Assembly (NCBI GenBank): GCA_017473345.1 | Contig: JAFULL010000014.1 | Location: 1-49,281, forward strand | Origin: Clostridia bacterium | Lineage (GTDB): Bacteria; Bacillota; Clostridia; Christensenellales; Aristaeellaceae | DNA length: 49,281 nt | Direction: 5' to 3' | Shown here: positions 1,006-44,984 of the stretch, in pieces | Layout: every line of letters begins with the position of its first letter | Position numbering within the stretch: the stretch's first letter is position 1 | Position numbers and translations under genes: made by a program | Notes under the pieces: model-generated | Seen by the model: the letters and a program-made list of their open reading frames with translations, nothing else | What the model was told of the DNA's origin: nothing | Database searches by the model: none

Positions 1006-2199
1006 TCAGACTCTGTCCGCTTCAAACAGCGCCAGACTGCGTTTGAGTATGCCATTCATGCCAGCAATGGCGATCCCGTAATTCACGATGGGTACGCCTG
1101 CATCCGCTGCCATCTTCACACGGTGCTGCATTTCCGCCTGGTTGAGCATGCAGCCGCCGCAGTGTACGATGACGCGGTAAGGTGTAAGATCCTGCGGAAA
1201 ATCTCCGCCGGATGTGAAATGATACACAGGCTTGGATTGTGAAATCTTCTCGATCCAACCGGGCATTTTTACGGTGCCGATGTCATTGCACTGGCGGTGA
1301 TGGGTACATCCCTCGGAGATGAGCACCTGATCGCCATCCTTCAATTTTTCCAGCGCGCAATAACCGTCTGTCAGCGCATCCAGTTCGCCTTTGTAACGCG
1401 CCATCAGGATGGAAAAGGAGGTCAGCGGAATGTCAGCGGGGGTGGCCCTGTTCACTTCAGCAAAGGCCTGTGAATCGGTGATGACCATACGCGGTTTCCG
1501 TCCAAGGGAAGCCAGCGTATCTCTCAATTCGGCTGTCTGGCATACGATGGCCATGGCGTGTGCATCCAGCACATCGCGCAAAACCATCTGCTGCGGCAGG
1601 ATCAACCGTCCCTTGGGCGCAGCTTCATCGATAGGTGTGACCAGTACCACCAGGTCCCCCGGCGAGAGCAGATCACGAATCAGAACGCTGGGTTTTTCCA
1701 TCTGCTTCGCAAACTGTCCGAGGCGTTCTTTCAGGTCAGCTACGCCTTCTCCGGTCACTGCGCTTACGTACAGAGAGCCGTCTTCAGACAAGGGTCTTTC
1801 ATCCAAGAGATCAGCCTTGTTCAGCGCGATGATACAGGGGATCCTGCGCTCTTTCAGTTCGTTGATCAGCTGCTTGTCCATGTCCTGCAGTCCTGTATGT
1901 GCATCGACGACAAGCACGGCGATATTGGTCTGTGCCAGTGTCTGTTTGGCTTTCTCAATACGCAGACTGCCCAGATGACCTTCGTCGTCCAGACCGGGCG
2001 TATCAAGGATGACCACAGGCCCAAGCGGAAGAAGTTCCATGGCCTTTTTCACCGGATCTGTGGTTGTGCCCTTCACATCGGACACAATGGAGAGCGCCTG
2101 CCCGGTCACTGCATTCACCAGAGATGATTTTCCTGCATTGCACATGCCGAAAAAACTGATGTGGATGCGTTCTGCTGATACAACACTGTTCAGGCTCAT
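1006..2199 (-). CDS. hydF: [FeFe]-hydrogenase H-cluster maturation GTPase HydF
   Basis: HydF is the scaffold on which the 2Fe subcluster of [FeFe]-hydrogenase is assembled before transfer to HydA. The 397-residue product has a P-loop GMCNAGKSS at residues 18-26, a G2/G3 region with DTPGLDDEG, NKAD for guanine recognition, and the C-terminal cluster-binding signature CTH (298-300) plus HCGGC (346-350), which matches the HydF CxH...HCxxC motif. Length fits the family. The start is preceded by GGAGGAAGAACGAT. It is the last gene of the regulator-hydE-hydG-hydF operon, 15 nt after hydG. No structural hydrogenase gene lies in this window, so the enzyme being matured is encoded elsewhere. Confidence 0.96.
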   Translation of the reverse strand: MSLNSVVSAERIHISFFGMCNAGKSSLVNAVTGQALSIVSDVKGTTTDPVKKAMELLPLGPVVILDTPGLDDEGHLGSLRIEKAKQTLAQTNIAVLVVDAHTGLQDMDKQLINELKERRIPCIIALNKADLLDERPLSEDGSLYVSAVTGEGVADLKERLGQFAKQMEKPSVLIRDLLSPGDLVVLVTPIDEAAPKGRLILPQQMVLRDVLDAHAMAIVCQTAELRDTLASLGRKPRMVITDSQAFAEVNRATPADIPLTSFSILMARYKGELDALTDGYCALEKLKDGDQVLISEGCTHHRQCNDIGTVKMPGWIEKISQSKPVYHFTSGGDFPQDLTPYRVIVHCGGCMLNQAEMQHRVKMAADAGVPIVNYGIAIAGMNGILKRSLALFEADRV

Positions 2200-2214
2200 A
2201 TCGTTCTTCCTCCA

Positions 2215-3669
2215 TCAAAAACGGAAATCACGGCGGTTGGAATGCTTGATATCCTCAATGTTCTGCCGGGCAATCTCCTGAACCTTTTCCTTCGGGATGC
2301 GCTGCAGCTCCTTTTCCACCATCTGATAACCAACAGCTTTGGTTTTCTCTGTGGCGTAATCCTCCAGATACTCGCTCAGCGTCATCAGCGCATTGGGATG
2401 GCAGCAGTTCAGAATCTGTCCGGATTTGCACAGGCTCATAAAGCGGTCGCCGGTACGACCCAGCCGGTAGCAAGCGGTGCAGAAGGAAGGGATGTAGCCG
2501 TTCTCCATCAGCCAGCATACGACCTCATCCAGCGAACGCTGATCGGAGACATCGAACTGCTCGGTGTCGTGAGGACGATCCTCGTTTGAGTAGCCGGCAT
2601 AGCCACCCACAGAGGTGCGCGATCCGCCGGAAACTTGAGAAACACCCAGACGCAGCAGCTTTGTACGGACGGCCTCATTTTCACGGGTGGAAATGATGAT
2701 GCCGGTATAAGGCACGGCCAGGCGAATGCAGGCGGTGATTTTTGCAAAAGTATCATCATCGATGCCGTTGTCGAACTGATCTGGATCAATATCATCTGCG
2801 CGCTTCAGGCGTGGGACGCTGATGGTGTGGGGGCCAACGCCATGCACGGCTTCCAGATGCTCAGCATGCATCAGCAAACCGGCGAACTCGTACTTGTACA
2901 GCTCGAGACCGAACAGCACACCCAGACCTACATCGTCGATGCCGCCTTCCATGGCGCGGTCCATGGCTTCGGTATGGTAAGCGTAGTCATGCTTGGGGCC
3001 GGTGGGATGCAGCTGTTCGTAGCTTTCCTTGTGGTAGGTTTCCTGGAAAAGGATATAGGTTCCGATTCCGGCATCCTTCAGCTTCCGGTAGTTCTCCACA
3101 GTCGTGGCAGCAATATTTACATTCACGCGGCGAATGTCGCCGTTCTTGTGATGTACGCTGTAAATGGTGTTGATGCATTCGAGGATATACTCAATGGGAT
3201 TGTTGACCGGGTCCTCGCCTGCCTCGATTGCCAGTCGCTTGTGGCCCATGTCCTGCAGGGCAATGACCTCGGCACGAACCTCTTCCTGCGTCAGCTTTTT
3301 GCGGGCAATGTGCTTGTTTTTGAGATGATAGGGACAGTACACGCAGCCGTTTACGCAGTAGTTGGAAAGGTACAGCGGCGCGAAAATAACGATGCGGTTG
3401 CCGTAGAAGGCCAGCTTGATCTCCTCGGCGATCTGGTAAATTTTTTCGGTTACCTCCGGAAGTTCGCATGCCAGCAGCACCGATGCTTCGCGGTGGCTGA
3501 GCCCTGCGCAGGTATAACCGGTGGCCGTCTTCTGGGGCTTGGCTTTTTCCAGAATGCTCTCAATGAGGGGCAGATTGTTCTTGTTGGCCTCTGCATAGGC
3601 CAGGGTGTCAAGGATCTCCGCATCAGAAATAAATTCTTCTGCCTTCAGGGATTTGGGATTGTACGCCAT
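2215..3669 (-). CDS. hydG: [FeFe]-hydrogenase maturase HydG (radical SAM tyrosine lyase)
   Basis: HydG splits tyrosine to give the CO and CN ligands of the H-cluster and builds the Fe(CO)2(CN)-cysteine synthon. The 484-residue protein shows the radical-SAM CxxxCxxC motif at C105, C109 and C112 (CVNGCVYC), and the C-terminal auxiliary-cluster motif CxxC...C at C397, C400 and C423 (CTACYRLGRTGDRF). This tail separates HydG from the related ThiH. It sits 57 nt downstream of hydE and just before hydF. Co-transcription is inferred from the spacing and the shared strand. Confidence 0.97.
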   Translation of the reverse strand: MAYNPKSLKAEEFISDAEILDTLAYAEANKNNLPLIESILEKAKPQKTATGYTCAGLSHREASVLLACELPEVTEKIYQIAEEIKLAFYGNRIVIFAPLYLSNYCVNGCVYCPYHLKNKHIARKKLTQEEVRAEVIALQDMGHKRLAIEAGEDPVNNPIEYILECINTIYSVHHKNGDIRRVNVNIAATTVENYRKLKDAGIGTYILFQETYHKESYEQLHPTGPKHDYAYHTEAMDRAMEGGIDDVGLGVLFGLELYKYEFAGLLMHAEHLEAVHGVGPHTISVPRLKRADDIDPDQFDNGIDDDTFAKITACIRLAVPYTGIIISTRENEAVRTKLLRLGVSQVSGGSRTSVGGYAGYSNEDRPHDTEQFDVSDQRSLDEVVCWLMENGYIPSFCTACYRLGRTGDRFMSLCKSGQILNCCHPNALMTLSEYLEDYATEKTKAVGYQMVEKELQRIPKEKVQEIARQNIEDIKHSNRRDFRF

Positions 3670-3726
3670 GTTTTTCTTCCTTTCTTTGAGTCAGATTGCT
3701 CTTCCTCTTCAGATGAAATGTATTGC

Positions 3727-4782
3727 TCACAGCATTGGGAGAATATCTCCTCTGTCTGTAACAACCTCGTAGCCGATCGCGGCCATTCGCCGCGCCAGTT
3801 CCTCGCGGCACTGTGCTGCCTCTGCGCCGTCAGTAGCCTTGTTGTCATAGAGGGCATACTTTTTGCGCACGGACGGCGGCGACAGGTTGGGCATAACCAC
3901 ATTGGCTCCTGCCTGAATGCCCATTTCCCGCCCATATGGATGAATGCTGCCCAGCGCGGTCGTGGAGGGCAAAAGCATGTTCGGTCTGATCAGGCGCAGG
4001 ATGGACAACAGATAGCAGGTCAATTCCAGCGTTCCGGCCTTTTGGGCGCCGAATGGCGTATCATGCTGAGGAATGAAGGGGCCAATACCGCACATATCCG
4101 GCTGAAATTGCTCGATAAACTTTAGGTCTTTGGCAAGCACGTCCGCAGTTTGAAACGGCGATTCCACCATCATTCCGCATCCTACCTGATAGCCCAGTTC
4201 CTTCAGATCCTGCAGACAGCGCATTCTGTTGTCAAATGACATGGCGGCAGGATGGAGCCTGGCATAATGTGCCGCATCAGTTGTTTCATGCCGGAGTAAA
4301 TACCGATCGGCACCGGCCTGCTTCAGCAGCTCATAGCTCTTTCTGCTGCGTTCTCCCAGAGAAAGCGTCACCGCGCACTCGGGATGCTCCGTCTTGATCG
4401 ACTGTACAAGTTCGCAGAGCACATCATCAGTGAAACTTGGATCTTCACCACCCTGAAGAACAAAGGTGCGGAATCCAAGTTCATAACCTTCCCTGCAGCA
4501 GGACAGGATGTCTTCTCTGCTCAGCCGGTAACGCTGGCAATTGCGGTTGCTGCACCGGATGCCGCAATACAGGCAGTCATTTTTGCAGACATTGCTGATC
4601 TCAATCAACCCGCGGATGAAGACGGTGTTGCCATAAACGGCCCACCGGGCTTTCACGGCCAACTCCGCAAGCAGGGATGCGGCTTCCGGCGTGCGGTGCT
4701 CGATCAGAAAGCGATAGTCTTCCTGCGGCAAATGATGCTCCGCAGCCAGTTGCGTGATCAGTTCGAAAAGATGATCATTCAT
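3727..4782 (-). CDS. hydE: [FeFe]-hydrogenase maturase HydE (radical SAM)
   Basis: HydE is the radical-SAM enzyme acting on the HydG product on the way to the diiron subcluster. The CxxxCxxC motif is at C66, C70 and C73 (CKNDCLYC), followed by CSNRNC. LQGGEDP and SLGERS segments are typical of the HydE/BioB-like barrel. The chosen start (MNDHLFEL) gives 351 residues, the family length. A longer upstream reading from 4875 would add 31 unrelated residues overlapping the regulator gene, so it is rejected. The start overlaps the end of the TM1266-like gene by 8 nt, suggesting translational coupling. Confidence 0.95.
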   Translation of the reverse strand: MNDHLFELITQLAAEHHLPQEDYRFLIEHRTPEAASLLAELAVKARWAVYGNTVFIRGLIEISNVCKNDCLYCGIRCSNRNCQRYRLSREDILSCCREGYELGFRTFVLQGGEDPSFTDDVLCELVQSIKTEHPECAVTLSLGERSRKSYELLKQAGADRYLLRHETTDAAHYARLHPAAMSFDNRMRCLQDLKELGYQVGCGMMVESPFQTADVLAKDLKFIEQFQPDMCGIGPFIPQHDTPFGAQKAGTLELTCYLLSILRLIRPNMLLPSTTALGSIHPYGREMGIQAGANVVMPNLSPPSVRKKYALYDNKATDGAEAAQCREELARRMAAIGYEVVTDRGDILPML

Positions 4783-5032
4783 GGGAAATGACGCTGGAAT
4801 AGGCAGTCTTGACGCTGACACCGGGCAGATTGCCGATTCTGCCGGAAAGGGTAGCGATCGTATTCTGCGGTGCATCCAGAGCGATGCTGATGATGCTCAC
4901 ACCTCTCTTGCGGTAAGGGATCCCCATCCTGCCGATGATGTACTCGCTGTATTCATGCAGCAGGGAGTTTGTCTCCTGCACAGAGTCTGCATTCTCCACG
5001 ATAATACTCATGACGGCGATTCGCGTTTCCAT
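4775..5032 (-). CDS. TM1266-type iron-only hydrogenase system regulator (ACT-like)
   Basis: This is an 85-residue protein resembling the small ACT-domain-like proteins known as the putative iron-only hydrogenase system regulator (TM1266 family), which are encoded beside hydE/F/G in many Clostridia. It opens METRIAVMSIIVEN, followed by the NSLLHEYSEYIIGRMGIPY segment typical of the family. The ribosome-binding site AGGAGG (5041-5046) lies 8 nt before the ATG. It is the first gene of the operon, directly after an unusual leader. Its molecular ligand is not established. A regulatory role is inferred from family context. Confidence 0.85.
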   Translation of the reverse strand: METRIAVMSIIVENADSVQETNSLLHEYSEYIIGRMGIPYRKRGVSIISIALDAPQNTIATLSGRIGNLPGVSVKTAYSSVISHE

Positions 5033-35658: not shown

Positions 35659-37146
35659 TCAGCCGATGAGATCGGCAACGACCTTTTTGAGATGCGCAAC
35701 ATAATAGGAAGGATTGAATTTTTCGCCTGTGGTCATCTCAAGCAGCTGAGCCGGATCGTAGCGGTCGCCCCAGCGGTGCAGGCGTTCGTTGAGCCATGCG
35801 GTGATGGGAGCAATGTCGCCCGTGCGCAGCAGGCATTCCACGTCCAGATCTTTCTTCATGGCATGCAGGATCTGGCTGGCATAGGCGCTGCCCAGTGCGT
35901 AGGTGGGGAAATAGCCGATCATGCCGCCGCCCCAGTGCATGTCCTGCAGAACACCCAAGGCGTCGGTGGGTACGTCAAGTCCGAGATATTCCTTGTACAG
36001 ACGGTTCCAGGCTTCGGGCAGATCCTTGGTGGTCAGCGTGCCGGCCACAAGCTGCTTTTCCAGCTCGTAACGCACCATGATGTGCAGCGGGTAGGTGACC
36101 TGATCGGCCTCGATACGGATGAGGGAAGGCTCGACATGGTTGGCGGTGCAGAACAGGCTGCGCTCGGTCACATCGGCCATGGCTTCAGGGAAATATTCCT
36201 TCAGTTTGGGAAGCAGGAAGGCAAGGAAGCCTGCATCATGGCCGATGAGGTTTTCATAGAAACGGCTTTGGCTTTCGTGTAATCCGGTGCTGGAAATGCT
36301 GCCAAGCACCGTTCCCTGATAGGTTTCCGATACGCCCAGCTCATACTGCGCATGGCCGCCCTCGTGCATCACGCTGTACACCGACGACAACAGTGCGTCC
36401 TCATAATAATGTGTGGTGATGCGCACGTCCCAGCGGTTCATGCTGATGGTGAAGGGATGCTCGGTCTCAGCCAGCGCACAGCGGGTGCGGTCCACTCCGA
36501 TGATATCCATCAGGCAGGCGGAGAAATCGCGCTGACGGTCGATGGAACAGGCGGCGATGGCCGGCGGAGGGGGAAGGGTGCGCACTTTTTCGATAAGGGG
36601 CACGATCTCGCTGCGCAGCATGCTGAAGAACGGGTCCAGAATGGCGGTACACATGCCCTTTTCATAGCTGTCCAGCATGACGTCGTAGGCGGGACGGGAA
36701 GGGTCCTTGTATGCGGCAAAGCGGCGCTCGGCATCGATCATCTTTGCCAGATACGGCTCGAAGGACGCGTAGTCGTTATTCGCCTTGGCCTGCAGCCAGG
36801 CGCCCAGGGATGCATTGCGCAGACGGCTGTGTTCGGCGACCTCCTCCACGGGAATGCGCGTCATGTCATCCAGATTTTTACGCAGGAGCTCCACTTGACG
36901 AAGCACATCGCCGTCCAGTTCTTCTTTTTGTGCCCACAGGCCGTCCAACAGCTCGCGGGTGTGGTCGCTGACGAGCAGTTCATAGGACTTCTGGTTCAAA
37001 AAGGCCATGGTTTCACCGCGGGCTGCGGCGGAGGCGGACGGCGCGCCGGTTTCGCTGTCGGCGCGCATGACAGCCATGGCGTGTTCGTAGGCGTGCAGCG
37101 AGGATTGCAGCACGGAAAGCTCTTTTTTCATTTCGTGTACTTGCAT
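35659..37146 (-). CDS. carboxypeptidase M32 (thermostable carboxypeptidase 1-like)
   Basis: A 495-residue zinc carboxypeptidase. The active-site HExxH is MHEGGHAQYELG near residue 263, followed by the third ligand in GLHESQSRFYEN, and RIEADQVTYPLH, HWGGGMIGYFPTYALG and the IRxxAD-like region typical of M32. These enzymes remove C-terminal residues from cytosolic peptides and fit peptide use, in keeping with the divergent oligopeptide transporter. The start MQVHEMKK has AAGGAAGGA upstream. Confidence 0.95.
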   Translation of the reverse strand: MQVHEMKKELSVLQSSLHAYEHAMAVMRADSETGAPSASAAARGETMAFLNQKSYELLVSDHTRELLDGLWAQKEELDGDVLRQVELLRKNLDDMTRIPVEEVAEHSRLRNASLGAWLQAKANNDYASFEPYLAKMIDAERRFAAYKDPSRPAYDVMLDSYEKGMCTAILDPFFSMLRSEIVPLIEKVRTLPPPPAIAACSIDRQRDFSACLMDIIGVDRTRCALAETEHPFTISMNRWDVRITTHYYEDALLSSVYSVMHEGGHAQYELGVSETYQGTVLGSISSTGLHESQSRFYENLIGHDAGFLAFLLPKLKEYFPEAMADVTERSLFCTANHVEPSLIRIEADQVTYPLHIMVRYELEKQLVAGTLTTKDLPEAWNRLYKEYLGLDVPTDALGVLQDMHWGGGMIGYFPTYALGSAYASQILHAMKKDLDVECLLRTGDIAPITAWLNERLHRWGDRYDPAQLLEMTTGEKFNPSYYVAHLKKVVADLIG

Positions 37147-37180
37147 GCGTTGACATCCTTCCTTAGGGTTTGCTGGCATC

Positions 37181-37209
37181 ATTATATGAAAGCTGCCGGA
37201 TGTTGTCAA
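37181..37209 (-). promoter_or_regulatory. consensus sigma-A promoter of the M32 carboxypeptidase gene
   Basis: Minus strand: TTGACA (37204-37209), 17 nt, TATAAT (37181-37186): a perfect match to the sigma-A consensus, suggesting strong constitutive expression. Confidence 0.85.
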
Positions 37210-37518: not shown

Positions 37519-39435
37519 ATGAAGAAGATGCTTGCTATCGTTCTCGCGATGATGATGGTTCTGTCCATGGTTCCCATGGCTGTGGCTGAAACTGCCGAAC
37601 CCGCTCTGGTCGCTGAGAAGGGTCTGGTCATCTATGGCTCCAGCACCGACATCGGCGGCGACTTCGCCCCCACTGCCTGGTGGACCAACGGCGCCACCGA
37701 CATGATGATCCGCGACATGACCAACGACTACGCCACCGTTACCACCAACCAGGGCGGCGAGTATGTGGTCAACGAGACCATCGTTACCAACATGGAAAGT
37801 GTTGAGAACGACGAAGGCACAAAGACCTAAACCATGACCATCGCTGAGTGCCTGACCTACAACAACGGCAAGGCCATGAACGCGAAGGACTTCGTGTGGC
37901 CCACCGTGCTGGCCTGCTCCAAGGTTCTGTTCGACCTGGAAGGCGCCACCACCACCTACACCTCTGTTGAGGGTGGTCAGGACTACTACGACGGCAAGGT
38001 GCCCTACGTCAGCGGCCTGCGCCTCATCGACGACTACACCTTCTCCGTCACCATCGCTGCTGAAAAGCTGCCCTACTACTACGACCTGGGCTACGCTGCC
38101 TTCACCGCTTTCGACATTGCCTACTGGCTGGGCGAAGGCTATGAACTGAAGGACGACGGCGAAGGCTGCTACATCGCCGGCGATTTCACCGCTGAGGCCA
38201 TCAAGGCTCAGATGGAGTATGCCCGCTTCAACGCCGGCCCCGACCGCGTGTCCGCCGGCCCCTACAACCTGGTTGAGTTTGACAAGGCTGCCCTGCAGGC
38301 TACCCTGACCATCAACCCCAACTACGTTGGCAACTTCGAAGGCCAGAAGCCTTCCATCGAGAAGATCGTGATCGTCAAGGCCGAGGACGCTACCTGGGCT
38401 GACGCCATCAAGACCGGCTCCATGAACTTCTACGACACCATCACCGATGGCGCTCACATCAACACCGCTCTGGACATCATCGAAGAGGGCGGCTTTGACT
38501 ACGTGCAGTTCGACCGTCCCGGCTACGGCATGGTCAACTTCGCCTGCGACTTCGGCCCCACTCAGTTCGTCAACGTTCGTCAGGCTATCGCCAAGCTGCT
38601 GGACCGTGTTGAGTTCGCCAACACCTTCTGCCTGGGCTGGGGCGGCGTTGTGAACGGCCCCTACGGCACCGCCATGTGGCAGTACAAGGAAGCTGAAGAG
38701 TGGCTCAACGAGAACCTCGACGCTTATGCCTACAACCCCGAAGAGGCTGTGGCTCTGCTGGTTGAGGATGGCTGGATCTACAATGCTGACGGCTCCGACT
38801 GGACCGAGGGCAACATCCGCCACAAGAAGGTGACCGCTGAGGAAGCCGGCACCTACGCTCACAACATCACTCTGGCTGACGGCACCATCCTGATGCCCCT
38901 GATCGTGGAATGGTCCTCCTCCGAGGCCAACCCCGTTTCCGACCTGCTGAAGGTCATGCTGGCTGAGTCCGACGCCACCAAGGCTGCCGGCCTGCAGATC
39001 AACCAGAACGTGATGACCTTCACCGAGCTTCTCAACTTCTACTACCGCGATTCTTCCCAGGGCGACAAGTATGCCATCCCCACCTATGGCATGTTCAACC
39101 TGGCCACCAACTTCTCTTCCGCCGTTTACGACATGTCCTATGAGTGGACCGACGATCCCGACCTGGTGGCCCTGGGCTACAACCTCAACCACCTGTTCGA
39201 CGACGTGCTGGATTGGCTGTCCATGGAAATGGTGTACGGCGTCAGCCCCGAAGAGCCCGAAACCTACCTGATCCTGTGGCAGAAGTACATGCAGCGCTGG
39301 AACGAGCTGATGCCTCAGCTGCCCCTGTACTCCAACGTGTACATCACCATGTACCCCGACTGGCTGGAAGGCTACGAGCAGGATTCCTACTGGGGCTTCG
39401 ACAAGGCCATCCTGTACGCTACTGTTGCTGAATAA
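37519..39435 (+). pseudogene. oligopeptide ABC transporter substrate-binding protein, interrupted by one in-frame stop
   Basis: A family 5 (DppA/OppA-type) solute-binding protein of 638 codons. Residues 1-23 are a Sec signal peptide (MKKMLAIVLAMMMVLSMVPM then AVA). No lipobox cysteine is present, which is unusual for a Gram-positive binding protein. At 37828-37830 a TAA replaces what is probably Tyr in GTKTxTMTIAE. The frame continues without shift to 39435 (TYNNGKAMNAKDFVWP, NPNYVGNFEGQKPSIEKIVI, DRVSAGPYNLVEF are typical). A restart at ATG 37834 has no good ribosome-binding site and would lack the signal peptide. The rest of the gene shows preserved codon use, so the stop is recent, a strain variant, read through, or a sequencing error. 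Confidence 0.85.
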
Positions 39436-39533: not shown

Positions 39534-40556
39534 ATGGGCAAATATATACTCAAACGCTGCGGTTACATCGTGGTGGTTTTTCTCATTATTTCCTTCCTGA
39601 TGTATTCGCTGTACAATCTCATCCCCAACGATCCGGCGCGCGCCCAGCTGGAAGGCCTGCGCTCCTCGCTCAAGCCTGCTGAGTACGAGGCCATGTACCA
39701 GTCGCTGCGCGATCAGATGGGTCTGAACGACTCGCTGATGGTGCGCTATCTGCGGTGGATGGGTCTGTGGACGGATACGGACGGAAAGACCTTCAACGGT
39801 CTTCTGCAGGGTAACTTTGGTTATTCCAACCTGTTCAAGCGCGACGTCATCGACGTGATCGTCGACCCGATGTCCAACACCATCTTCATCAATATTTTCT
39901 CTACCATTCTTTCTCTTGCGATCACCATTCCGCTGGGTATTTACTGTGCGGTTCACAAGAAAAAGAAGTTTGACTCGGCCACGCAGGTGGTCACCATGCT
40001 GGGATATTCTCTCCCGGTATACATTATTGCGCTCGTTTTCATGTTCCTGTTCTGCGTCAACTGGCGCATCTTCCCTGTCATGGGCATCAAAACGGCCGGC
40101 ATTGAATACGCAAACAACTGGGAAGCGTTTACGGACAAGCTGCTCCATGTGACCCTTCCTGTTATTGTTATGACGTTTGGCTCGCTGGGCGGCATGACCC
40201 GCTACGTGCGTTCCGCCATGATCGAAGCGCTGAGCATGGACTACATCCGCACGGCCCGCGCCAAGGGCCTGCGTGAAAAGATCGTCATCTACTCCCACGC
40301 CTGGCGAAACGCCCTGCTGCCCGTGATCACCAGCATTCTGGGCTGGTTCCTCAGCATTTTCTCCGGCTCTGTCGTTATTGAAAACACGTTCTCCTTGAGC
40401 GGCATGGGCGCCCTGTACTGGCAGGGCCTCAACAACAACGACTTTGAGCTGGTGCTGGCCATTCAGATGTTCTATTCCATCGTTTCTCTGGTGGGCTCGC
40501 TGCTGATCGACATCAGCTACGGCCTGGTCGACCCGCGCGTACGCGTTGATAAGTAA
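39534..40556 (+). CDS. oligopeptide ABC transporter permease, DppB/OppB type
   Basis: A 340-residue integral membrane subunit with six helices. YILKRCGYIVVVFLIISFLMY is the N-terminal OppB helix, and EALSMDYIRTARAKGLREKIV is the EAA-loop that docks on the ATPases. The ending VDPRVRVDK is typical of the family. The extracellular loop between TM1 and TM2 is ordinary in size, unlike that of its partner. It starts after AGAAGGGA and is followed 17 nt later by the second permease. Confidence 0.93.
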   Translation: MGKYILKRCGYIVVVFLIISFLMYSLYNLIPNDPARAQLEGLRSSLKPAEYEAMYQSLRDQMGLNDSLMVRYLRWMGLWTDTDGKTFNGLLQGNFGYSNLFKRDVIDVIVDPMSNTIFINIFSTILSLAITIPLGIYCAVHKKKKFDSATQVVTMLGYSLPVYIIALVFMFLFCVNWRIFPVMGIKTAGIEYANNWEAFTDKLLHVTLPVIVMTFGSLGGMTRYVRSAMIEALSMDYIRTARAKGLREKIVIYSHAWRNALLPVITSILGWFLSIFSGSVVIENTFSLSGMGALYWQGLNNNDFELVLAIQMFYSIVSLVGSLLIDISYGLVDPRVRVDK

Positions 40557-40573: not shown

Positions 40574-42442
40574 ATGGCAAACAACAAAAAGCAGTTTTTC
40601 CTCGTCCGCTGGTTCAAGCGCATGTTCCTGGGCCACGATCAGGAAGTGAGGGACCTGCTCAAGGAAGAGCAGGTGCAGACCCCCTTCAAAATGATGGCCA
40701 AGAACTTCTTCCACAAGCGCACGGTGCAGGTGGGTCTGACGGTGTTCATCCTCATCTTCCTGTTTGTGACTGTGGGCCCTGTGTTCTTCCCGCTGGACCT
40801 GAGCGATCAGGACTCCACGCTCATCAACCTGCCTCCGGGATACAGCATGATGAAGCTGCCCGCCGCGATCAACGGCAAGGTGGCTGATATCGCCCCCGGC
40901 AACACCTACGGCATCGGCCTGGATACCGATGGCCATGTGCACACCTGGGGCGTGACTCGCATCACCGACAAGATCGACCTCAAGGACATTCCTGAGGAAG
41001 TGCAGAACGCCGATCTGGTTCGTCTGGCTGCCGGTTCCGACCACGCGGTGGCGCTGGACGCCAACGGCCAGCTGTATGTGTGGGGCAACACCCGTCTGTC
41101 GCAGAACAAGTATTCCAGCGACATGACCAAGCACATGAAGAACGCCGCCAAGGGCAAGACCAGCGAGGAATGGGACATCATTCAGCTGGAGGCCAGCAAC
41201 CAGTTCTCCGCGGCGCTGTCCAGCGACGGCACCCTGTATCTGTGGGGCAACGGCAACATGGCCGATATCAAGATCCGCAGCAAGTATCAGGGCAAGGTGG
41301 CCAAGGTCGCCCTGACCAACAACGAATACATCTGCCTGCTCAAGGACGGCACGGTGGCCTACGCCGGCTATAAGGACAAGGGCAGCCCCTTCTCCAACAT
41401 CCCCAAGGATCTGAAGAAGGAAACTATCGTGGACATTGCCGCCACCAGCAGCACCGTTGCTGCTGTGACCGAGGACGGCCGTGTGTACGTATGGGGCAAC
41501 GCAGTCAAGGGTGAAAACAAGATCCCCGAGCTGGCCTCCCCCATCAGCAAGCTCTACGGCGGCCGTTTCCACTACACTGCTCTGCTGGAGGACGGCAGCG
41601 TCGTCAGCTGGGGCAACAACAAGTATCATCAGACGGAAGTGCCTGCCTCCCTGCAGGGTAAAGAGATCGCCTCGCTGTACGTGGGCAACTTCCAGAACTA
41701 TGCCGTTACCACCGACGGCGAAGTACACAGCTGGGGCCTGAAGGGCTTCCTGATGGGCACGGATGAACTGGGCCGCGACATGCTGACCCGCGTCATCAAC
41801 GGCGGCCGCGTCACCATGACCGTCGGCGCCATCGCTGTGATCATCGCCACCATCATTGGTGTTCTGATGGGCGGTCTGGCCGGTTACTTCGGCGGAAAGA
41901 CTGATATCCTGATCATGCGCATTTCCGAGATCGTGGGCGGTCTGCCGTTCATTCCCTTCTCTATGATTCTGTCTGCTGTCATCGGCTCCCGCTTGGACTC
42001 CAACCAGAAGATGTACCTCATCATGGTGGTGCTGGGCGTGCTGAGCTGGGTGCCCACCTGTCGACTGGTGCGTGCGCAGATCCTGGCCCAGCGCGAGATG
42101 GAATATGTAACCGCCGCCAAGGCCATGGGCATCAAGGTAATGACGATCGTGTTCCGTCACATCCTGCCCAACGTTCTTTCCATCCTGCTGGTGAGCATGA
42201 CGCTGGACTTTGCCACCTGCATGCTGACCGAATCCACGCTGAGCTACCTGGGCTTCGGCATTCCGCTGCCTCAGCCCACATGGGGCAACCTGCTCAACGG
42301 CGCCAACAACTCCGTCGTCATCCAGCAGTACTGGTGGCGCTGGGTGTTCCCGGCCGTGGTGTTCGGCCTGTGTACCATTTGTATCAACATGATCGGCGAC
42401 GGCCTGCGTGACGCGGTCGATCCCAAGAGCGCTGAGCGTTAA
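40574..42442 (+). CDS. DppC/OppC-type permease with an inserted seven-repeat RCC1-like propeller
   Basis: The 622-residue product is about twice the usual size. Residues 1-72 are the cytoplasmic tail and TM1 (VQVGLTVFILIFLFVTVGPV). Residues 393-622 are the normal permease core (GTDELGRDMLTRVINGGR, EMEYVTAAKAMGIKVM as the EAA loop, LGFGIPLPQPTWGNLL). Between them, residues about 100-390 form seven RCC1-like repeats, each with a pattern like AxxxxHxxALxxDGxVYxWG: DTDGHVHTWG, DANGQLYVWG, SSDGTLYLWG, LKDGTVAYAG, TEDGRVYVWG, LEDGSVVSWG, TTDGEVHSWG. Seven repeats is one closed propeller. By topology it is outside the cell. Function is unknown; capture of a non-lipidated binding protein or of ligand is an inference. 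Confidence 0.92.
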   Translation: MANNKKQFFLVRWFKRMFLGHDQEVRDLLKEEQVQTPFKMMAKNFFHKRTVQVGLTVFILIFLFVTVGPVFFPLDLSDQDSTLINLPPGYSMMKLPAAINGKVADIAPGNTYGIGLDTDGHVHTWGVTRITDKIDLKDIPEEVQNADLVRLAAGSDHAVALDANGQLYVWGNTRLSQNKYSSDMTKHMKNAAKGKTSEEWDIIQLEASNQFSAALSSDGTLYLWGNGNMADIKIRSKYQGKVAKVALTNNEYICLLKDGTVAYAGYKDKGSPFSNIPKDLKKETIVDIAATSSTVAAVTEDGRVYVWGNAVKGENKIPELASPISKLYGGRFHYTALLEDGSVVSWGNNKYHQTEVPASLQGKEIASLYVGNFQNYAVTTDGEVHSWGLKGFLMGTDELGRDMLTRVINGGRVTMTVGAIAVIIATIIGVLMGGLAGYFGGKTDILIMRISEIVGGLPFIPFSMILSAVIGSRLDSNQKMYLIMVVLGVLSWVPTCRLVRAQILAQREMEYVTAAKAMGIKVMTIVFRHILPNVLSILLVSMTLDFATCMLTESTLSYLGFGIPLPQPTWGNLLNGANNSVVIQQYWWRWVFPAVVFGLCTICINMIGDGLRDAVDPKSAER

Positions 42443-42457
42443 GGAGGTGGATGAAAA

Positions 42458-43436
<979 letters not shown>

Positions 43437-43456
<20 letters not shown>

Positions 43457-44984
43457 GCGCAAGCCTCTGCTTCGCATTTCAAACCTCAAGCAGTATTTCC
43501 CGCTGAAGACCAAGGGCCTCTATGTCAAGGCCAACGACGGCATCACGCTGGATATTTATGAAGGCGAAACGCTGGGTCTGGTGGGCGAATCCGGCTGCGG
43601 CAAGAGCACACTGGGCCGTACGCTGCTGCAGCTGTACCGTCAGACCGACGGACGCACCATGTACTATGGCCGCACGCTGGACGATATGGCCCCCAAGTAT
43701 GTGGGCGAGACCATCAAAACGCTGGCCAAGCGCCGCACCCAGCTCAAAACGCTGGAAGAAAAGCGCGAAGCCGTTGAAAAGGAATACGAAGCCATGCCTG
43801 ACGGCGAGGCCAAGTACGCCAAGTTCAACGACGTGGAGCAGGCCCGCAAGGAAGCCAACGACTGCTTCCTGGATATGGCCAACCTGATCGGCGGCTTTGT
43901 GATGGTGGACGACCTTGCGCCTGTGAGCGAGGCCTTTATGGGCCTGTACAAGCTGTCTGCAAAGCTGCACGAAGCCAACGAAGAACTGCAGGACGCCGAG
44001 CTGGATCTTGCTGACGCAAATTTTGCTGTTGAGCACAGCAAAAAGGCCGAAAAGGCCAAAGCGCAGGCTGCAAAGTTCCAGGCAAAGGTGGACGGCATCA
44101 ATGAGAAGATCGCGGGTATCCGCAAGGAGATCGAGGCGCAGCATGCCAAAATCGACGAGATGCGCAAGCCCTACGCCGACAATGAAGAATTCCAGCGTCT
44201 GGAAAGCTTCCGCGACGACGGCATCGATCTGGCCCGCCTGGAGTATGACGAAATCCGTCAGCTGCGCAAGGATCTGCAGATGATCTTCCAGGATCCCTAT
44301 TCCAGCCTGAACCCCCGCATGACGGTCGGTCAGATCATCAGCGAGGGCATGATCGCTCACAAGTACTTCAAGAAGAACGACGAGCGCATGCAGGAAGAAA
44401 TTCTGAAGGTGATGGAAAACGCCGGTCTGGCTCCGTACTTCGTGCACCGCTATCCGCACCAGTTCTCCGGCGGCCAGCGTCAGCGCATCGGCATCGCCCG
44501 CTCGCTGGCTGTGCGCCCCAAGTTTGTGGTGTGCGACGAGGCTGTTTCCGCCCTGGACGTTTCCATCCAGTCGCAGATCCTCAACCTTTTGCAGGACCTG
44601 AAGGAGCAGCAGAACCTGACCTACCTGTTCATCACCCACGACCTGAGCGTGGTGAAGTACATTTCCGACCGCATCGGCGTAATGTACCTGGGCAACATGG
44701 TGGAGCTGGCCGATTCTGAGGAGCTGTTCAAGCATCCCCGCCATCCCTACACCGAGGCCCTGATGAACGCTATCCCCACCACCGATATGGACAGCGGCAG
44801 GGAGATCCAGGTGCTGGAGGGCGATATCCCCAGCCCCGTGAAGCCGCCCAAGGGCTGCAAGTTCCATACCCGCTGCAAGTACTGCACCGAGATCTGCAAG
44901 CATCAGATTCCTGCGTGGGAAGAGGTTTCTCCCAACCATTTCGTGGCCTGCCACCATATTCTTGATCAGGAGGAAAGCAAGTGA
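43437..44984 (+). CDS. DppF/OppF-type ATPase with an inserted helical domain
   Basis: The 515-residue protein is about 180 residues longer than usual. Walker A is GESGCGKST (50-58). The next core element, RKDLQMIFQDPYSSLNPRM with the Q-loop, appears only at 277-295. Signature QFSGGQRQR (342-350), Walker B FVVCDEAVSALD (363-374) and the Cys-rich tail CKFHTRCKYCTEIC are normal. The insert, about 88-270, is charged and helical (TQLKTLEEKREAVEKEYEAM; ANEELQDAELDLADANF; KVDGINEKIAGIRKEIE), suggesting an antiparallel coiled coil with a more hydrophobic middle. It would project from the nucleotide-binding domain into the cytoplasm. The role is unknown. RBS AGGAAGGAGG sets the start. Confidence 0.93.

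Follow-up and report, generated by a model that had tools for sequence, protein, structure and literature searches.

In the 49,281-nucleotide stretch of contig JAFULL010000014.1 analysed here (the window; Clostridia bacterium, family Aristaeellaceae, assembly GCA_017473345.1), an operon-like set of genes is predicted to encode an Opp/Dpp-type ATP-binding cassette (ABC) importer whose C permease is fused to a seven-bladed RCC1-type propeller. Structure modelling confirmed the product of this gene as an OppC protein carrying the complete propeller at its outer face, the outer location being assigned by homology. The architecture, its conservation, the linkage within the operon and the co-occurrence with an insert in the ATPase OppF are all results of computation. 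As to function, we tentatively favour, at somewhat less than an even chance, the view that this is an expanded Opp/Dpp subtype in which the propeller mainly adds a docking or holding platform for the co-encoded substrate-binding protein (SBP).

The original prediction had the coordinates, reading frame and 622-residue length of the permease right, and the parts of the gene are as follows (TM, transmembrane).

40574..42442, + strand: OppC-type permease with propeller, 622 residues (open reading frame, Pfam, AlphaFold2, structural superposition)
40718..40786, + strand: TM1, residues 49-71 (AlphaFold2/DSSP; OppC_N at 36-88)
40859..41743, + strand: seven-bladed RCC1-type propeller, residues 96-390 (Pfam, AlphaFold2, structural superposition), with blades at residues 103-126, 148-171, 202-225, 242-264, 285-308, 324-347 and 365-388
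41780..42418, + strand: remaining TM helices, residues 403-615 (Pfam, AlphaFold2, superposition)

Pfam identified OppC_N at residues 36-88 (E 1.7e-8), BPD_transp_1 at 429-618 (E 3.4e-29), WD40_RLD (RCC1-like domain) at 101-390 (E 1.2e-50) and RCC1_2 repeats (E 4.6e-34), E values that put the domain assignment far beyond chance; the RCC1 matches also exceeded their curated cut-offs (173.3 against 150 bits for WD40_RLD, 115.8 against 22 bits for RCC1_2). The AlphaFold2 model, built from a 75-sequence alignment (mean predicted local distance difference test score, pLDDT, 90.0; predicted template modelling score, pTM, 0.83), showed a confident propeller fold on a short stem: TM1 at 49-71 is followed by the strands of the seven blades (103-388) and then by a TM helix at 403-439. 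The insertion therefore lies where it had been proposed, between TM1 and the GTDELGRD segment (395-402). As had also been anticipated, the propeller is predicted to be extracytoplasmic, on the SBP docking side, and the model of the permease alone superposes over the full length of the ring on solved RCC1-type propellers, by which its closure was judged. The claim of seven RCC1-like repeats held in Pfam and AlphaFold2, but the WG motif said to end each of them ends only six of the seven blades; blade 4 (242-264, ...DGTVAYAG) is degenerate in sequence, its strands being still present in the model, with the third placed by register.

An assembly chimera, which the original prediction had named as a possible source of the insertion, was rejected, since the same fusion recurs in many family and named genomes. 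Using residues 85-409 of the fused permease as the query, 40 of the 200 genomes of the window's family matched at E below 1e-40, the next match being at 5e-13; the window's genus is represented among the 200 by 11 genomes, of which two, its own included, are among these 40, as is one genome in which the gene is truncated by a contig end (G036). In the assembly of G125 (L070 / L037) two separate frames together make up the fused permease. In the phylum sample at least 14 of 398 genomes, the window's own included, had matches spanning the propeller, a lower bound because at most three candidates per genome were scored. At least 80 loci of named records match the query as well; among the matches listed, 79 have a usable frame and 74 are complete fusions by the criteria set for this count, the exceptions being cut or broken (L092, L111, L113, L132) or a plain OppC (L156); L154 is cut. 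The carriers, many of which are animal-gut Bacillota according to their record titles, include Hungatella effluvii DSM 24995, Butyrivibrio sp. AE2015, Falcatimonas sp. MSJ-15, Clostridium sp. Cult1 and Anaerococcus sp. Marseille-Q5996. Another complete copy of the fusion gene lies on a contig of a Treponema metagenome-assembled genome (L109), through either transfer or a binning error.

Complete copies keep a full-length propeller across a deep clade. In a quick, midpoint-rooted tree built from the membrane parts of 33 plain OppC, several of them on long branches, and 72 fused OppC (thinned from 126), a single change between the fused and plain labels was needed (Shimodaira-Hasegawa-like approximate likelihood ratio test, SH-aLRT, 90, below the starred 95). 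The fusion may thus have had one origin, with the qualification that other origins could have been missed because the fused sequences were collected through their resemblance to the query. Within the family, many genomes contain further, weaker RCC1-like matches in open frames of about 200-1700 residues, a possible source of the propeller domain.

The permease gene lies in an operon-like order of SBP, OppB, fused OppC, OppD, long OppF and a 71-residue protein, closed by a hairpin:

37519..39435, + strand: family-5 SBP gene, with a signal-peptide-like N-terminus lacking a lipobox and one in-frame TAA at 37828-37830
39534..40556, + strand: OppB/DppB-type permease, 340 residues (Pfam BPD_transp_1 and BPD_transp_1_N)
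42458..43456, + strand: OppD-type ATPase of ordinary length, 332 residues (Pfam)
43437..44984, + strand: OppF-type ATPase with a long insert, 515 residues (Pfam, structure model)
43695..44204, + strand: all-helical insert of OppF, residues 87-256, between the Walker A motif and the Q-loop
44981..45196, + strand: small protein with one TM-like stretch, 71 residues, its GTG start overlapping the oppF stop codon
45198..45232, + strand: terminator-like hairpin of 15 pairs at the operon end (consensus scan)

One operon thus holds a C permease with the OppC_N and BPD_transp_1 folds, a B permease, two ATPases that each end in an oligo_HPY region, and an SBP_bac_5 protein, the SBP frame that the window contributes to this assignment holding one TAA. 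This composition is that of an Opp/Dpp-type (family-5) importer, and from the family we infer a peptide substrate. The SBP of the window matched PF00496 over a 668-residue frame with that single TAA inside; the frame of its relatives is open at the same position, and the codon is either a sequencing error or a real nonsense change. Wherever enough sequence is present, fusion loci have an SBP gene upstream of the fused permease. A constant neighbour outside the operon was not found, as the largest such cluster of open reading frames occurred in only 10 of 119 loci. Divergent and upstream of the operon lies an M32 carboxypeptidase gene (35659-37209, - strand), a neighbour shared only by L039 among the 38 loci compared.

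A long OppF, whose co-occurrence the original prediction had proposed to check, accompanies the fusion: it was present in 100 of the 104 unique OppF of fusion loci versus none of the 17 controls. The insert consists of helices at 87-94, 96-119, 124-156, 161-200, 204-246 and 250-256, modelled with block pLDDT values of 86-98. Four loci (L060, L102, L123, L127) have a short OppF despite their propeller, and the three of them on the tree fall in three separate clades. OppD stays ordinary, the spacing from Walker A to the Q-loop being in the 50s in 125 of the 128 OppD-like frames of fusion loci.

The small membrane protein, which had likewise been suggested to go with the fusion, is encoded after OppF in 104 of the 106 fusion loci that are informative, 12 further loci being cut too early. 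Clustering recognised it in 100 of these and inspection by eye in L097, L102, L145 and L146; it is absent from L123 and L127. Strong matches were found in 41 of the 200 family genomes, on fusion-operon contigs or on cut contigs in which the permease or propeller is not in view (G019, G047, G062, G075, G138); two weak matches (G092, G118) fall outside these. A similar protein, recognised by profile or by eye, also follows OppF in plain sister operons (L191, L195, L196, L197, L202, L206, L240 and the second operon of L088). It was therefore rejected as a marker of the fusion, which it seems to predate; it is probably an unnamed accessory protein that this importer group has long had, and four copies searched against Pfam and two against NCBIfam matched no family above cut-off. 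The small proteins encoded after oppF, in the fused and in some plain operons, may represent an overlooked subunit of these importers.

Over 75 sequences (effective number 43.7) the propeller was less conserved than the membrane part (mean 0.449 versus 0.671). Blades 4-5, the farthest from the stem, tended to be the least conserved, with 0.43-0.44 in their B strands and 0.22-0.26 in their CD loops, the lowest values; AB loops scored 0.39-0.42 in these two blades, 0.44 in blade 1 and 0.55-0.65 in the remaining four (2, 3, 6 and 7), and the A strands differed little among blades. The divergence of propeller and SBP was compared in the 86 operons, out of 90 distinct ones, that have a long OppF, using the distances left over once those of the C membrane part, of B, of D and of the OppF core had been regressed out. 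These residual distances correlated at 0.56 between propeller and SBP, while the faster-changing OppF insert gave 0.09 with the propeller and 0.11 with the SBP. By group, the correlation between propeller and SBP was 0.41 in loci L039-L083 (33), 0.54 in L084 and later loci (53) and 0.79 in the 35 loci with long propellers.

In the outward half of the mechanism that we favour, the rigid propeller on the outer face of the C permease would dock and hold the co-encoded SBP, keeping a matched SBP near the gate or oriented on it, beside the scoop-like region that TM1 and TM2 of the B permease form. Its role would be like that of MalF-P2, the large extracytoplasmic portion of a single permease subunit through which the maltose-binding protein is contacted (PMC3150292). 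On the inner side, the helical insert of OppF would lie under the same half of the transporter as the propeller, given that C and F are partners in E. coli Dpp (PMC12136057), and there it could adjust the rate of ATP hydrolysis or link hydrolysis to some cytoplasmic partner. The physical contact between propeller and SBP, the holding function and any role of the OppF insert are what we infer from these comparisons.

A substitute for the lipid anchor of the SBP was considered as a role of the propeller and rejected, since lipobox loss appears to follow lineage and not the propeller. Among the unique SBPs of fusion operons, 58 of 59 from the named loci L084-L155 match the lipobox pattern, against 3 of 36 from L039-L083 (L039-L076 from the window's family, L077-L083 close relatives), each of these three having its match within the hydrophobic core. 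Of 28 further family-5 SBPs in the window's family, three matched the pattern, only L226 convincingly (26 SBPs from the 30 best-scoring loci, L207-L236, and two of the own genome, L188 and L189); outside that family it was found in 16 of 19, some starts in this comparison being uncertain. Since the family's other SBPs mostly lack a lipobox and most fusion SBPs of L084-L155 have one, its loss seems characteristic of a lineage and independent of the propeller. In the window's family a lipobox is thus rare among family-5 SBPs even though the Lgt and LspA genes are present: Lgt was found in 21 and LspA in 22 of 22 genomes, and both in all 17 of that family.

Several results weigh against a docking role. 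The permease N-terminus (cytoplasmic part and TM1) correlates at 0.31 with the propeller and 0.27 with the SBP, so the signal between propeller and SBP is not wholly specific; significance is inflated in tests on distance matrices, and a signal of this kind could also come from joint transfer or from shared exposure. In the 51 loci with short propellers (under 300 residues), the class to which the window's protein belongs, propeller and SBP correlate at 0.12 versus 0.18 for propeller and OppF insert, and the signal stems from the 35 long-propeller loci together with differences between groups. Matching is thus supported by the group-wise correlations for the whole set and the long class, but not for the short class. 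With a lipobox in 58 of the 59 SBPs of L084-L155, no extra holder would be needed. Nor does SBP size count as a sign of a docking site: SBPs of fusion operons measure 616-802 residues (95 unique, cut frames under 560 residues dropped) versus 537-602 in nine of plain operons (open frames), but lengths of 641-642 residues occur among other SBPs of the family too. The earlier interpretation is partly supported: the idea that the propeller holds the binding protein gains from the constant linkage of the SBP gene and from the correlated divergence, and loses from the short-propeller loci without the signal.

Those same loci, which show no special correlation of propeller and SBP, would suit a propeller acting as a receptor for another partner, such as a surface or secreted peptidase, a cell-wall component, or a host or dietary polypeptide, so that substrate would be produced near the importer. 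Propellers of the RCC1 type serve generally as binding platforms, and among the close structural matches of this one are the ectodomain of the receptor kinase ACR4 and BLIP-II, the latter solved in the presence of beta-lactamase. The divergent M32 gene of the window and L039 would offer a candidate partner; however, this neighbour occurs in one of 38 loci, M32 enzymes are expected to be cytoplasmic, the largest cluster outside the operon is confined to 10 of 119 loci, and blades 4-5 are the most variable, so that we consider this receptor role rather doubtful.

The nearly constant pairing with the long OppF (100 of 104 versus 0 of 17), the confident all-helical fold of the insert and the C-F pairing of E. 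coli Dpp (PMC12136057) could instead point to a regulatory device, in which the propeller senses the outside state (ligand load of the SBP, or free peptide) and the OppF bundle responds or binds a cytoplasmic regulator. This we regard as unlikely, as the distances of propeller and insert hardly correlate (0.09) and L060, L102, L123 and L127 combine a propeller with a short OppF; since three of these loci lie in separate clades, the two parts can work apart. That the propeller is a structural spacer or shield with no specific partner, clearing the gate from the wall or stabilising the permease, fits its confident fold on a short stem and its lower conservation (0.449 versus 0.671), but is quite improbable given its full-length retention over a deep clade and the SBP gene upstream wherever sequence suffices.

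The docking platform could belong to a wider design, a new subtype in which the half formed by the C permease and OppF is rebuilt on both faces, with permanent docking of a matched SBP outside and an ATPase-controlling helical bundle inside. Such an importer would be pre-assembled and regulated from two sides, its SBP not freely exchanging; we put this forward as speculative and probably too strong.

Elsewhere in the window, genes for a HydF-type GTPase and two radical S-adenosylmethionine (SAM) proteins lie in a row (1006-4875, - strand), resembling the [FeFe]-hydrogenase maturation set HydEFG.

The holding and recruitment of SBPs are central to the understanding of ABC importers, and a large natural domain on the docking face, usually accompanied by an insert in the partner ATPase, could be removed to test them. 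RCC1-type propellers are best known from eukaryotes; here one serves as an extracellular module of a bacterial transporter. The parts are known, and their combination appears undescribed in the literature covered: a search for an RCC1 or propeller fusion to a permease or transporter listed no paper that concerns one by title or start of the abstract, most subscription journals and bioRxiv lying outside its coverage. Among NCBIfam models, Opp4 importers come nearest, Opp4C (NF045476) being the best match of the window's C permease (280.9 bits) and Opp4A (NF045467) that of the L041 SBP (95.6 bits). The Opp4C cut-off of 350 bits was not reached by the window's permease or by that of L086 (304.2), neither of which passed any of the NCBIfam models listed for it, nor was the Opp4A cut-off of 650 bits by the SBPs of L041 and L062 (56.4). 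In solved importers, the C chains of E. coli OppBCDF and DppABCDF (8z21, 8z1v-8z1z) and of M. tuberculosis OppABCD and DppABCD (8j5q, 8wd9) have about 280-290 residues and no propeller, and E. coli OppF (328 residues) lacks the helical insert. The propeller itself closely matches BLIP-II (1jtd, 3qhy, 3qi0), a free inhibitor of beta-lactamases with no membrane-protein part, and the ectodomain of ACR4/CRINKLY4 (7a0j), a plant receptor kinase whose membrane part is unrelated. MalF-P2 and the propeller are both large extracytoplasmic regions on one permease subunit, but differ in fold, in loop position and in permease family.
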